Shown here piece by piece: positions 7,516-12,882 of a stretch of DNA of 64,000 nt (positions are counted from its first letter, which is position 1; each line of letters begins with the position of its first letter). Below the pieces are notes generated by a model that worked only from the letters and a program-made list of their open reading frames with translations, made no database searches and was not told the DNA's origin. The stretch is from Turneriella parva DSM 21527 (GTDB lineage: Bacteria > Spirochaetota > Leptospiria > Turneriellales > Turneriellaceae), in the NCBI RefSeq assembly GCF_000266885.1, contig NC_018020.1, positions 3,844,001 through 3,908,000 of the forward strand. The letters run 5' to 3'. A program made the position numbers and the translations under genes.

Positions 7516-7801
7516 TGATGAGAACTTTTCTTGAATTCTGCCCTTATGCGACCTGAGACGCGGCCCCGTCGCAGAAAATTGCGGAACTTTTCCGAATTTT
7601 GTCATTTTGCGGCCCGTGGCGTGCCCTGAGCTGATGAGAACTTTTCTTGAATTCTGCCCTTATGCGACCTGAGACGCGGCCCCGTCGCAGAAAATTGCGG
7701 AACTTTTCCGAATTTTGTCATTTTGCGGCCCGTGGCGTGCCCTGAGCTGATGAGAACTTTTCTTGAATTCTGCCCCTATGCGACCTGAGACGCGGCCCTA
7801 C
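7454..7801. repeat. Tandem array of three 116-bp units
   Basis: The sequence starting CGCAGAAAATTGCGGAAC begins at 7454, 7570 and 7686, exactly 116 bases apart. Units 2 and 3 differ by only one or two bases; unit 1 differs at several. Each unit is itself two related halves: the AACTTTTCCGAATTTTG half and the AACTTTTCTTGAATTCTG half align over about 50 bases, so the array behaves like six ~58-bp half-units. The last unit ends at the SpoIIE stop codon (7798-7800). The near-identity of the copies points to recent expansion. Confidence 0.9.
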
Positions 7802-10011
7802 CCCTTCAACAACTGCTCCAACCTCTCCGCATTCTTGCGTATTTCTTCATTCTCAGGCTCATGCACGAGCGCCTTCTCGATCGCAAAGCGTGCGAGGGCA
7901 TATTTACCGAGATTGAGACAGGCAATCGCGAGGTTATTGAACGCCAGAGCGTAATTCGACCTGAGGCTGATCGCCTCGCGCGCGTGGCGTTCGGCGATTT
8001 CGAAGCGTTTCTGCATGATTGCGATCGAACTCAGAAAATAAAAAACCTCGGCGTTCTGCCGGCTGAGGTCGGCGTACGCATGAAAGTAGCGCTCGGCGGT
8101 TTCGATGCGTCCGAGGTCGAAATTCACCGCCCCGGCTGTCTTGAGCGAAAGCAAATTCTTGCCATAGAGTTTGATGGCTTCGTCGAGCAATTTCACTCCA
8201 TTCTGGCGGTCGCCCTGCTCGATCTGCTGGTACGCGCGCGCTGCCATCTGCAGAAAGCGTGAATATTCGCGGTTCACTTCTGCCATGAGAATCGAAATGT
8301 CGTCGTTAGGTTTATTGCCTTCGGCGAAACGAAACACTTCGGCGACGATGAAGGGTACGGCTTCGGCGGCCGGCAGCGGGCGCGCGCTCTGCAAGATGGC
8401 GTCGAAGCGTTCTATGCCCAACTCTTCGCCGCTGCTGTTGCGTATTTCAATGAGGCCGTCGGTATAGAGAAACAGCCTGTCGCCGGCAAAGAGTCGCTCT
8501 TCTTTTTCGCCGTAACTTTCATTCGCTTCGGGCATTGCCCCGACAAAGAGTCCATCGGTATCGAGTGATTCGATTTCACCCGACTCGGCGCGCAGAATTT
8601 TTGCCTGCTGGTGCGAGGCGTTGCCATAGTAGAAATGGTGGGTCTCATCGATGGTGAGGTAGAAGGCAGTCAGGTAATCTTGTGTCGTGACGATCTTCAG
8701 CAGCTGGTCGTTGACATCGCGAAACGTCTGCGCTGGCGAGTGCGAGCTTTGCGCCGAGCGAGCAAACGTCACCTTTGCCATGGTCGTGATGAGCGCAGCC
8801 GGCACGCCGTGGCCAGAGACGTCGGCGATGAGAACTCCCAGCCGGTTGCCGTGCGCAGGAAAAACATCGTAGTAGTCACCCGAAACTTTTTCCATCGGCT
8901 TGTAATAGCCATAGAATTTCAGACCGTTCCACTCGTCGATGCTCGCGGGTATAATACCTTTCTGAATCTCTGACGCGAAATCGAGTTCCATCTGAATCAG
9001 TTTGTCTTTTGCATGCAGAGCTTCGTTGGCATTCGTGAGCTCGGCGGTGCGCTCATCGACCTTGCGCTCGAGGTTGTGCTGGTAATCGCGAATCGTGGTC
9101 GTAGCAGTATTGAGGCCCGTGGCGACGTTGATGAATTCGGTGTCGAGCGCCTGCGGAAACAGCATCACGTCTTTGCCGTCACGAATGCTCACCGAAGCTG
9201 CCTCGATTTCGCGCAAAGACTGCAAGACGATTGAAAAGAGCATGTACGCCATAATCGCCGCGATCGCGATCGCAAAGATCGAAAAGCGAATCATCACGGG
9301 AAATTCAACGTTGTAGTAGACCATAAAGTTCGAGACAAACAAGGTCGCGACCATGATCATAATAAAAAAGAGAATCTTCGAGCGCACCGTCGAGAGCGAT
9401 ATCTCTTTGAACTCCACCTTTTTTTCGTACATGATCTGCTTCACGCGCGTGCGCATCTCGCCGGTGACGAGTTCGGTAATCACGGCCGCAAAGCCGGCAT
9501 GTATGAAACCGGCGATAACAGCAATCACGCCGACCTGAATCAGGTTCACAAAGCTGTAGTTCTGCCAGCGGTTGAGGTAGACGACAACACCGGCGACGAT
9601 CATGACGACCATCGCCACCGACATGTACGCATTTTCACGCGGCAGGTAGCACAGCATGCGGTGCAGCTCGCGGTACTGGTCGGCGTTGAGATCGCGGCGA
9701 ATGTCGATTTTTAACCAGGTTTCGCCGCGCACGATTGCGCGGTTCAAAAGGCGCATGCCGCGGGTGAGACCTGAAAAACCGATCTTGTGCAAGATACCGA
9801 AATAGAGCCCGTGGATCACGGTGGTAAGACCCGCAATCGCACCGACGACCAGAATCAGCTTATCGATGGCTGGCAGCTTGATCGCGTAACTGTAGTAAAG
9901 AACGAACACAAATGTGATGATACCTGCATAGAGGGCGCTCGAGGCTGCAGAGGCGCCAAACGAGAGAATATTGGCAACAATGTAAAAAGTCGGTAAAAAC
10001 AGCCGCCGCAT
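7798..10011 (-). CDS. Membrane-bound SpoIIE/RsbU-type serine phosphatase with TPR tail
   Basis: A 737-residue inner-membrane PP2C phosphatase expected to dephosphorylate an anti-sigma-antagonist (STAS) protein. About six hydrophobic segments fill residues 5-265, followed by a HAMP-like stretch and a coiled coil (about 265-350). The SpoIIE catalytic domain (about 350-560) shows SGDYYDVFP, LIADVSGHGVPAALI, LFLYTDGLIE and PNDDISIL, carrying the metal-binding aspartates. Three or more TPR-like helical pairs end the protein (about 575-735). A STAS protein at 49334-49693 is a candidate substrate elsewhere in the window. On the minus strand AGTATA at 10047-10052 reads TATACT, a possible -10 box. Confidence 0.9.
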   Translation of the reverse strand: MRRLFLPTFYIVANILSFGASAASSALYAGIITFVFVLYYSYAIKLPAIDKLILVVGAIAGLTTVIHGLYFGILHKIGFSGLTRGMRLLNRAIVRGETWLKIDIRRDLNADQYRELHRMLCYLPRENAYMSVAMVVMIVAGVVVYLNRWQNYSFVNLIQVGVIAVIAGFIHAGFAAVITELVTGEMRTRVKQIMYEKKVEFKEISLSTVRSKILFFIMIMVATLFVSNFMVYYNVEFPVMIRFSIFAIAIAAIMAYMLFSIVLQSLREIEAASVSIRDGKDVMLFPQALDTEFINVATGLNTATTTIRDYQHNLERKVDERTAELTNANEALHAKDKLIQMELDFASEIQKGIIPASIDEWNGLKFYGYYKPMEKVSGDYYDVFPAHGNRLGVLIADVSGHGVPAALITTMAKVTFARSAQSSHSPAQTFRDVNDQLLKIVTTQDYLTAFYLTIDETHHFYYGNASHQQAKILRAESGEIESLDTDGLFVGAMPEANESYGEKEERLFAGDRLFLYTDGLIEIRNSSGEELGIERFDAILQSARPLPAAEAVPFIVAEVFRFAEGNKPNDDISILMAEVNREYSRFLQMAARAYQQIEQGDRQNGVKLLDEAIKLYGKNLLSLKTAGAVNFDLGRIETAERYFHAYADLSRQNAEVFYFLSSIAIMQKRFEIAERHAREAISLRSNYALAFNNLAIACLNLGKYALARFAIEKALVHEPENEEIRKNAERLEQLLKG

Positions 10012-10084
10012 TCTCTTTTGAAGATCGGAAAGTTAGACGTGGCGGCAGTATAAAAAACGGCAGACTGCGGGTACGCCGCTGATG

Positions 10085-10102
10085 CTTCGTCAATTGACGA
10101 AG
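10085..10102. promoter_or_regulatory. Perfect 18-bp palindrome, candidate operator (site 1)
   Basis: CTTCGTCAATTGACGAAG is a perfect palindrome in the 116-base gap between the divergent SpoIIE (start 10011) and M14 peptidase (start 10128) genes. The same 16-bp core with one central change recurs at 11175-11190 in front of the olsF-like gene. Two near-identical palindromes upstream of adjacent genes suggest a common DNA-binding regulator. Confidence 0.55.
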
Positions 10103-10127
10103 TGTTTCCCGCACACCTTTTGCCCTC

Positions 10128-11141
10128 ATGTCTGCCACCAGCGAAATTTTGCACTTTGATCGCTGGGAAAGGCGCCTGCTGCGCTTCGTGCGCCGCCATG
10201 AAGGCCTGGTGCGCATTCGCCAGCTCGACTTTTCGACCCCGACCCGGCACGGCCAGCGCTGGCCCATCTATATGCTCGAAATCGGTAAACCCGCAGCCTT
10301 CAGGCGCCACACCGTTTCGCTTGTTTCCGGGGTGCACGGGCTCGAAACGATCGCGATTCGCATTCACCTCGATATACTCAAGAATATGCTGAACCCGAAA
10401 AGTGCCTGGTATTCAGAACGCCTGCTGAAGGGCAAGTTTGGCATTAACTCGATTCCGATTCTGAATCCCGCGGGGGTTGCGGCAGAGACGCGGGCCAATG
10501 GCCGGGGCGTTGACCTCAACCGCAATTCGGGCATAGATGCCGAAGCCGGATCTATCCCGTTTTTCGGCGGCCACCATATTTCACCGGCGCTGCCCTATTA
10601 CCGCGGCCGGGCGCTGCAGCGCGAATCTCGCGCGCTTTTCAGGTTTTTGAGCGACTACGCGCTGAAGGGCCGGCGGCAAGTACACACGGCGGTCGATCTG
10701 CATTCGGGTTATGGCTCACAGAATTATCTCTGGTGGCCCTATTCGTTCAGCAAAAAGCCGGTTTACCAGAAGGCGGTTTTCGAAGACATGGGCGCGCGCC
10801 TGAAGGCCAGGCATGCCGATTACCGCATTGAGCCGATGGCGGCAAGTTACCAGACCCACGGCGATCTGTGGGATAGAGCCCTCATCGAGTTTGAAGCCGC
10901 GCAGGCAAAGCTGAGCGCGCGAAAAAAGTCGCTGTTTCTGCCCCTGACCCTTGAAATTGGCACGTGGCGTGAACTGCGCAAGAACCCGGTACGTCTGCTG
11001 AAGAAACAGAACATATTTAATCCCCCTGAAAAGAGCCGCAAAGACTATCTGCGTAAGCACCGCCAACTTTTGTGGGATATAGTGCACCTGCATGGCCGCC
11101 GGGCAGCACGAAAGGCCGCGCTGAAACTGCATATCGGTTGA
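10128..11141 (+). CDS. M14-family zinc carboxypeptidase-like protein
   Basis: A 337-residue protein predicted to be a zinc metallocarboxypeptidase. The zinc ligands are visible as HGLE (about residue 66-69) and the later histidine in AVDLHSGYG. NPAGVAAETRANGRGVDLNRN is the substrate-binding region typical of M14 enzymes, and LTLEIGTW near residue 280 holds the catalytic glutamate. There is no signal peptide, so it is probably cytoplasmic. Its substrate could be a peptide or an acyl-amino acid. It is preceded by a perfect palindrome and followed after 61 bases by the olsF-like gene, which has the same palindrome. Confidence 0.8.
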   Translation: MSATSEILHFDRWERRLLRFVRRHEGLVRIRQLDFSTPTRHGQRWPIYMLEIGKPAAFRRHTVSLVSGVHGLETIAIRIHLDILKNMLNPKSAWYSERLLKGKFGINSIPILNPAGVAAETRANGRGVDLNRNSGIDAEAGSIPFFGGHHISPALPYYRGRALQRESRALFRFLSDYALKGRRQVHTAVDLHSGYGSQNYLWWPYSFSKKPVYQKAVFEDMGARLKARHADYRIEPMAASYQTHGDLWDRALIEFEAAQAKLSARKKSLFLPLTLEIGTWRELRKNPVRLLKKQNIFNPPEKSRKDYLRKHRQLLWDIVHLHGRRAARKAALKLHIG

Positions 11142-11170
11142 CGCCGCAGGCAGAAAGCTACAGGCGTCCT

Positions 11171-11194
11171 TTAATTCGTCATTTGACGAATTAA
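11171..11194. promoter_or_regulatory. Near-perfect 24-bp palindrome, candidate operator (site 2)
   Basis: Arms TTAATTCGTCA (11171-11181) and TGACGAATTAA (11184-11194) are exact complements around TT. The centre TTCGTCATTTGACGAA matches site 1 at 10087-10100 except for one base. It ends only eight bases before the ATG of the olsF-like gene, so a bound protein would block transcription start or translation initiation. Confidence 0.6.
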
Positions 11195-11202
11195 CAAAAC
11201 TT

Positions 11203-12882
11203 ATGAGTATCAGCAGCGCACTCTACACCCCCGAATTCCAGAACCTGAAAGAGTCCCTTTTCAGGCGCAAGAGTCTCCCGTTTGCCGACCTTGTCGAGCG
11301 GGTACGCGACGAGCTCGACCTCGAAATCATGGTGAGCCTCAGGGACAGGGAAAAAATACCCGCTGAGGGCAGATTGCTCATCGCGGCAAACCATCCTCTG
11401 GCGTTTTTAGACCTTATCGCGGTCTATTCGACAGTACACGGCATCAGACGCGACATCACGGTTGTCGCCGATTCGCTTTCAGAATTTACGGGGGACGACG
11501 GCACAGTCGTCGTCAATAGCGGCAAACAGCAGCCCTACGCCACACTCAAGAAAATTCAAAAAGCGCTGAATGAAGAACGGGCGGTGATTTACTTTCCCGC
11601 TAAAACCCGGCATTGGCGGCTGAGACAGATCAGCGACGGGGACTGGTCGAAGGCAGTTGCGCAGATGGCGACGCTCTGGCAGGTACCCGTCGTGGCGATG
11701 CACATTGCAGCGCGTAATCGCCTCTCTCACTATTTCTGGACAGCGGTTTCAGGACTCTATTCAGATATCTCGCTTGATTCAGAGATCAAAAGCCAGAAGC
11801 ATTCGTCGATTGCGCTGACGGTCTCGCACCCGATTTTGCCCGAGGCATTCGCGGGTATAAAAGCCGGGGCTGCAGCAAAACTTCTGCGCCGGCACGTCTA
11901 CCAGATCGGCCGCGGCAAACCCGGCACCTTTCGCACGACCAAGAATATCGTTCACCCAACCGACAAGAAACAGATTCTGAATGACATCATGCAGGCCGAA
12001 GTACTCGGCGAGACCGAAGACAAGATCAGTATTCTGCTGGTTCGTTACGAAACCGCCCCAGCGCTCATGCGTGAGATCGGCCGCCTGCGTGAGCTGACGT
12101 TTCGAAAAGTCGGCGAAGGTACGCTCAGAAAAATCGATCTCGACGAATTTGACGAACATTACCTGCACATCGTGCTGTGGGACGCCGCAGAACTCGAGGT
12201 AGTCGGCGCATACCGCCTCGCTGCCGGCGACGAAATTTACCGCCAGCGCGGCACATCGGGGTTCTACACTTCTACTCTCTTTCGCTTCAACGAAGAATTT
12301 GAAAAGTACCTGCCGCAGTCGCTCGAGCTCGGCCGCAGTTTCGTGCAACCGGCTTACTGGAACAGCCAGGCACTCGACTACCTCTGGCATGGAATCGGCG
12401 CTTTCATGGCGAAAAACCCGCAATACAACTACCTGTTTGGGCCGGTATCGGTGAGCGCGTCGTATTCTGTCGAAGCACGCGAGATGCTGGTCTGGTTTTA
12501 CAGCCGCTGGTTCGGCAAGACTGACGGCCCGGTGCGGGCGAAGCACCGTTTCGCCTACCGCGCGGGCCATCTGCAGCAGATCGAAAAGGCCTTTAAAGCT
12601 GAAGATTACAAACAGAGCTTTAAGGAGCTCAAACAGAACCTCAAGCATTACGGCTATAGCGTACCGACGCTGTACAAACAGTATACAGAACTCTGCGACG
12701 AAGGTGGGGTCAGTTTTTTCGACTTTGGCATCGACAAAGATTTCAATAACAGCCTCGATGGCTTTATTTTTCTCGATATCTCAAAAATTAAAGAGGCCAA
12801 ACTCGAGCGTTACGTCTACAGCAAACGCGCTAAAGAAGAATGGACAGCCGACCGTGAGCGAGTTGCCAGTCTGACAGTCTGA
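11203..12882 (+). CDS. olsF: OlsF-like bifunctional ornithine-lipid acyltransferase
   Basis: A 559-residue protein with two acyltransferase halves, as in OlsF enzymes that make ornithine lipids. The N-terminal half (about 40-270) is PlsC-like, with the NHPLAFLD motif (histidine-aspartate pair) and the later YFPAKT and VPVVAMHI blocks. The C-terminal half (about 285-540) is OlsB/GNAT-like, with ELGRSFVQPAYWN and YLFGPVSVSASYS. Known OlsF enzymes acylate ornithine and then the lyso-lipid; that this one does so is inferred. An aminolipid would give a phosphate-free membrane lipid. The gene ends 53 bases inside the convergent ABC gene. A nearly perfect palindrome lies just before the start. Confidence 0.75.
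   Translation: MSISSALYTPEFQNLKESLFRRKSLPFADLVERVRDELDLEIMVSLRDREKIPAEGRLLIAANHPLAFLDLIAVYSTVHGIRRDITVVADSLSEFTGDDGTVVVNSGKQQPYATLKKIQKALNEERAVIYFPAKTRHWRLRQISDGDWSKAVAQMATLWQVPVVAMHIAARNRLSHYFWTAVSGLYSDISLDSEIKSQKHSSIALTVSHPILPEAFAGIKAGAAAKLLRRHVYQIGRGKPGTFRTTKNIVHPTDKKQILNDIMQAEVLGETEDKISILLVRYETAPALMREIGRLRELTFRKVGEGTLRKIDLDEFDEHYLHIVLWDAAELEVVGAYRLAAGDEIYRQRGTSGFYTSTLFRFNEEFEKYLPQSLELGRSFVQPAYWNSQALDYLWHGIGAFMAKNPQYNYLFGPVSVSASYSVEAREMLVWFYSRWFGKTDGPVRAKHRFAYRAGHLQQIEKAFKAEDYKQSFKELKQNLKHYGYSVPTLYKQYTELCDEGGVSFFDFGIDKDFNNSLDGFIFLDISKIKEAKLERYVYSKRAKEEWTADRERVASLTV

Follow-up and report, generated by a model that had tools for sequence, protein, structure and literature searches.

Two neighbouring genes of Turneriella parva are preceded by nearly the same palindrome, which raises the question of what regulator reads it and which other genes that regulator controls. 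The window analyzed here, the whole stretch of 64,000 nucleotides around this locus, is G000:C1:3844001-3908000, where G000 denotes T. parva.

Two palindromes before adjacent genes

The first target encodes an M14-family zinc carboxypeptidase-like protein (10128..11141, + strand; PF00246, 43.9 bits). The second is olsF, for a bifunctional ornithine lipid synthase-like protein (11203..12882, + strand; NF052615 OlsF and PF13444) whose score against NF052615 is 572.6 bits, under the cut-off of 620, with an alignment that is nearly full-length. A gene for a SpoIIE-type phosphatase with TPR (7798..10011, − strand; PF07228, 135.8 bits) diverges from the M14 gene. Site 1, CTTCGTCAATTGACGAAG, is an 18-bp perfect palindrome at 10085-10102 (16-bp core at 10086-10101) in the intergenic region that separates the divergent M14 and SpoIIE genes. 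It lies 26 bp upstream of the M14 ATG and starts 75 bp from the ATG of the SpoIIE gene, which may be a third target of this operator judging from its position only. Site 2, TTAATTCGTCATTTGACGAATTAA, is a 24-bp palindrome at 11171-11194, and its 16-bp core (11175-11190) ends 12 bp before the olsF ATG at 11203. The 32-bp spans matched by our site model R3, to which no strand is assigned, are 10078..10109 for operator 1 (30.4 bits, E 5e-5 in the window) and 11167..11198 for operator 2 (38.2 bits, E 3.4e-7 in the window). The first-pass annotation had described such a pair, and the sequence bears it out: both palindromes are even, their cores differ at one base, and the second ends 8 bases before the olsF ATG. 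An intrinsic terminator was considered and rejected, as a T-run is absent downstream and site 1 sits between divergent genes.

The pair is also rare. Besides both sites, the 64-kb window holds a single match with three mismatches; counting up to three mismatches, there are five strand-matches versus 1.23 expected. The window contains five perfect hairpins with arms of at least 10 bp, site 2 among them, where 0.6 are expected. The genome-wide search that the annotation had proposed returned exactly two perfect copies, 1.1 kb apart, in the whole 4,409,302-bp T. parva genome, far from the hundreds of intragenic copies that it had named as the mark of a generic repeat. With reversed control patterns the same genome yielded no more than one match, and the few copies with one or two mismatches are some intergenic palindromes and some coding matches.

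Conservation and form of the operator family

Model R3, which was built from 34 sites, places this operator family at gene starts in 12/13 Turneriellaceae genomes, with a consensus that is a 28-bp imperfect inverted repeat, roughly CATTATTTCGTYAWTTRNCGAAATAATG. The site before M14 is kept in three species (T. parva, G008 as TTCGTTAATTGACGAA and G011 as TTCGTCCATTGACGAA), and the site before olsF in five: T. parva, G011 (TTAATTCGTCACTTGCCGAATTAA), G007 (weaker), G008 (in a TTAG..CTAA form) and G004, which belongs to another genus than Turneriella, the other relatives being from the same genus and family. A third T. parva locus, also found in two relatives, has divergent genes for a carotenoid oxygenase (RPE65 family, 397 bits) and an FMN oxidoreductase; the carotenoid oxygenase site is present in three to four species, and ppk follows this locus as the next gene in G007 and G011. 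The outer arms vary across loci and species yet stay paired, with covariation in nine sites, and the core letters are conserved beyond mere pairing. At exbB, a TonB receptor, olsF and a porin of G008, TTAG..CTAA replaces TTCG..CGAA, a paired letter change (G008:C19:7828, 10063). At the M14 site of the closest relative (G011:C435:186-225) the arms reach 22 bp with a single G-T mismatch, well beyond what a dimer would cover; quasi-palindrome repair is one conceivable source of this length.

Matches to the pattern in the family are intergenic or at gene starts, while those outside it are all intragenic, including the class-wide exact matches in G021, G025, G033, G045, G046 and G017, which we took as chance. 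Most of the 35 genomes outside the family are without an R3 match, and the remaining matches are mostly weak and within genes; the single strong one, in G033, lies within a called gene.

Two readings would deny these palindromes a role as protein-binding DNA. The nine-site covariation prompted us to consider RNA hairpins at mRNA 5′ ends that control translation, a reading that also draws on the strong folds, on arms reaching 22 bp in which both sides have changed, and on the several sites that touch an ATG (that of the carotenoid oxygenase lies inside the right arm). However, among 32 sites with known gene direction the asymmetric consensus occurs in both orientations to the gene (22 vs 10), and gene-sense mismatches are split between G-U (29) and A-C (33), showing no RNA bias. 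Such a wobble balance and dual orientation are unexpected for an RNA element, and the conservation of core letters goes beyond what pairing would require; we therefore prefer a double-stranded DNA operator, rejected the translational switch and regard it as very improbable. The partly variable arms might instead suggest chance palindromes or a dispersed repeat, but with two exact genome copies and conservation at orthologous promoters across species and genera, this idea deserves next to no credence.

Genes that carry the sites

Regulon content was assessed with a narrower model, R1, made from nine sites at only M14, olsF, carotenoid oxygenase and EAL genes, and containing no pst, pit, porin or exbB site. 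Searched against the 13 family genomes and then pst loci, R1 found new sites at pstS, pstC, the Pit phosphate permease (two genera), a Porin_O_P phosphate porin (38.4 bits), exbB-exbD-tonB operons, a TonB-dependent receptor, a GT4 (Agt-like) glycosyltransferase and the gene directly after phoU. The last of these, which has the site in four genomes, encodes a second SpoIIE phosphatase and is followed by a calcineurin-like, PlcP-like phosphoesterase. The broader R3 added ppk in three genera, further TonB receptors and another Porin_O_P. Because R3 includes pst-type sites, its own pst matches are partly circular, whereas those of R1 are not, and the independent part of the regulon argument is R1. 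The pstS of the pst operon has an upstream site in 6/6 genomes having that gene. A second pstS paralog (T. parva genome 202092) has weak matches of 15-17 bits at its start in three genomes.

Judged by gene content, the sites delineate a putative phosphate-starvation regulon, as they precede pst, pit, ppk, phosphate porin and lipid-remodelling genes. olsF fits this theme since ornithine lipid, a membrane lipid, contains no phosphorus, and induction of ornithine lipids by phosphate limitation is widespread (e.g. PMC12186959). PlcP, whose gene commonly shares an operon with that of a glycosyltransferase, serves lipid remodelling in phosphorus deficiency and has PHO boxes upstream in proteobacteria (PMC4796936); the T. 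parva enzymes are presumed to be PlcP and Agt from fold family and context. The classical Pho genes do not include M14, EAL, TauE or carotenoid oxygenase. The first-pass annotation had suggested a shared regulator of lipid/peptide metabolism: the shared regulator is well supported, but the pst, pit, ppk and porin targets make the theme one of phosphate starvation. Its guess that the regulon might lie mostly elsewhere was apt.

A candidate regulator and its competitors

In T. parva, a gene for a 119-aa ArsR-family protein (contig 1, 4256925-4257284, minus strand) is divergent from pstS. Its product matches PF01022 (48 bits, cut-off 22) and NF033788 (81.6 bits, cut-off 55), indicating an ArsR-type winged-helix domain, and its PDB relatives are SmtB, CzrA and HlyU. 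Orthologs with a nearly invariant HTH recognition region are present in 10/13 family genomes and in none outside the family. In G000, G007, G010 and G012, arsR sits beside pst, divergent from pstS, and the intergenic region that it shares with pstS (or with the porin gene) holds strong sites. A site directly at the arsR start is found in G012 only and is weak (15.4 bits). The ortholog was not found in G001, G008 and G011, drafts of 83-84% completeness, though sites are present there; G008 and G011 are also without a neighbouring pstS, and since the G008 pst contig begins inside the operon, an assembly gap is a plausible cause of the missing arsR.

Most known ArsR/SmtB proteins respond to metals, sulfur or redox, with few genes under their control. 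Their operators (SmtB, CzrA) are 12-2-12 inverted repeats that overlap promoters and are bound by a small winged-helix dimer, a shape with which the Turneriella sites agree. The 10 candidate orthologs have no conserved cysteine, and the signature of a metal or thiol sensor (Cys in α3, or an α5 site) is absent from them, though some ArsR proteins do without one. What chiefly ties this type of palindrome to the ArsR family on independent grounds comes from outside Turneriellaceae, where 3/20 R3 matches fall right on the start of another ArsR-family gene (G041, G037 and G035; chance expectation 0.0025, p about 2e-9), all three of which exceed the NF033788 cut-off.

On sequence evidence, we consider it probable that a Turneriellaceae Pho regulon uses the palindromes as double-stranded DNA operators, with the pstS-divergent ArsR/SmtB-family dimer as the protein most likely to bind and repress them. 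We infer the identity of this protein, its binding, the repression and the phosphate signal as follows. In plentiful phosphate the winged-helix dimer would bind the operators and repress transcription, repression being proposed from the overlap of the sites with promoters and gene starts (the latter at carotenoid oxygenase, EAL, GT4, SpoIIE2 and olsF). Phosphate shortage would release ArsR and so turn on Pi uptake (pst, pit, Porin_O_P and ExbBD/TonB receptors), polyphosphate metabolism (ppk) and phospholipid replacement (olsF, the PlcP-like phosphoesterase and the Agt-like glycosyltransferase). Read in gene orientation, a TTKAC/TATAC (TT[TG]AC) box follows the 16-bp core at 7-9 nt in 14/45 sites versus 2 expected, indicating a fixed promoter geometry, and in two species the site at TauE is flanked by TTGAC(A/G) and a −10-like box. 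The simplest reading would be that an ArsR dimer represses by steric hindrance; activation may apply instead, and a box at fixed distance could also fit an activator placed like PhoB.

Such an activator, a PhoB/OmpR-type response regulator acting upstream of the −10 through PHO-box-like sites, would suit the classical Pho genes among the targets, the fixed box and the GTCA-N7-GTTA direct repeats in some sites. Weak matches of this kind prompted us to consider a PHO box with 11-bp direct repeats, which we rejected: the 34-site alignment is an inverted repeat in which tandem 11-bp direct repeats are absent, and a search of the 99.99%-complete T. parva genome for OmpR/PhoB-type DNA-binding domains found two, neither of them a PhoB candidate. 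The sole full OmpR-type regulator lies in a hem operon, flanked by genes for a histidine kinase and a hemE-like protein, an arrangement like that of Leptospira HemKR, and scores 124.9 against a PhoB cut-off of 296. We hold activation of this type to be quite improbable. The second domain is an 85-aa KdpE fragment (T. parva genome 333208-333465), a DNA-binding domain alone beside a large KdpD. Another protein might bind the same operators of the same phosphate regulon, leaving the pst-linked ArsR just a local role, as the sites in the three genomes where its ortholog was not found, the weakness of its promoter site and the want of a metal or thiol ligand site to suggest phosphate sensing could indicate; its synteny with pstS in four species, the three ArsR-linked palindromes outside the family and the absence of PhoB make this rather unlikely. 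We lean cautiously towards the wider proposal that a whole phosphate-starvation regulon, including membrane-lipid replacement, is under a cysteine-free ArsR-family repressor to which a signal relays phosphate status, a non-homologous replacement of PhoB in a spirochete family.

The targets resemble those of the PhoB/PhoR Pho regulon (pst-phoU, pit, ppk, phosphate porins, plcP-agt and ornithine lipid synthesis), but Turneriella differs in having no PhoB found and an even inverted repeat of about 28 bp that overlaps gene starts, in place of 11-bp direct repeats. A literature search found no description of an ArsR-run Pho regulon; the nearest case is ArsR1 of Agrobacterium tumefaciens 5A, an arsenite-responsive repressor of the ArsR family whose binding site lies between pstS1 and phoB1 and which keeps a pst/pho locus repressed (PMC7965956). 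ArsR1 occurs alongside PhoB, and its target is a secondary pst locus close to ars genes, whereas the Turneriella candidate has neither an arsenic operon context nor any cysteine, and its sites extend throughout the regulon. Among spirochetes, HemR of Leptospira acts on exbBD-type genes (PMC11426443), but its box, the direct repeat TGACA-N6-TGACA, and its hem targets differ. The same search found neither a Pho regulon described for this group of spirochetes nor a PHO box for Leptospira, and phosphate sensing in PhoB-less spirochetes thus appears to be undescribed before. With an operator, more than a dozen regulon targets and a candidate regulator named, each step is directly testable, and the proposal, if true, would extend the ArsR family from metal/redox sensing to a global nutrient response. 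SpoIIE-type phosphatase genes recurrently adjoin the sites (window 7798-10011, L110:1903-3252 and L169:6037-8154): one is divergent from M14, four genomes have one after phoU, and G005 has a further case. This recurrence hints that partner switching may be tied to phosphate signalling.
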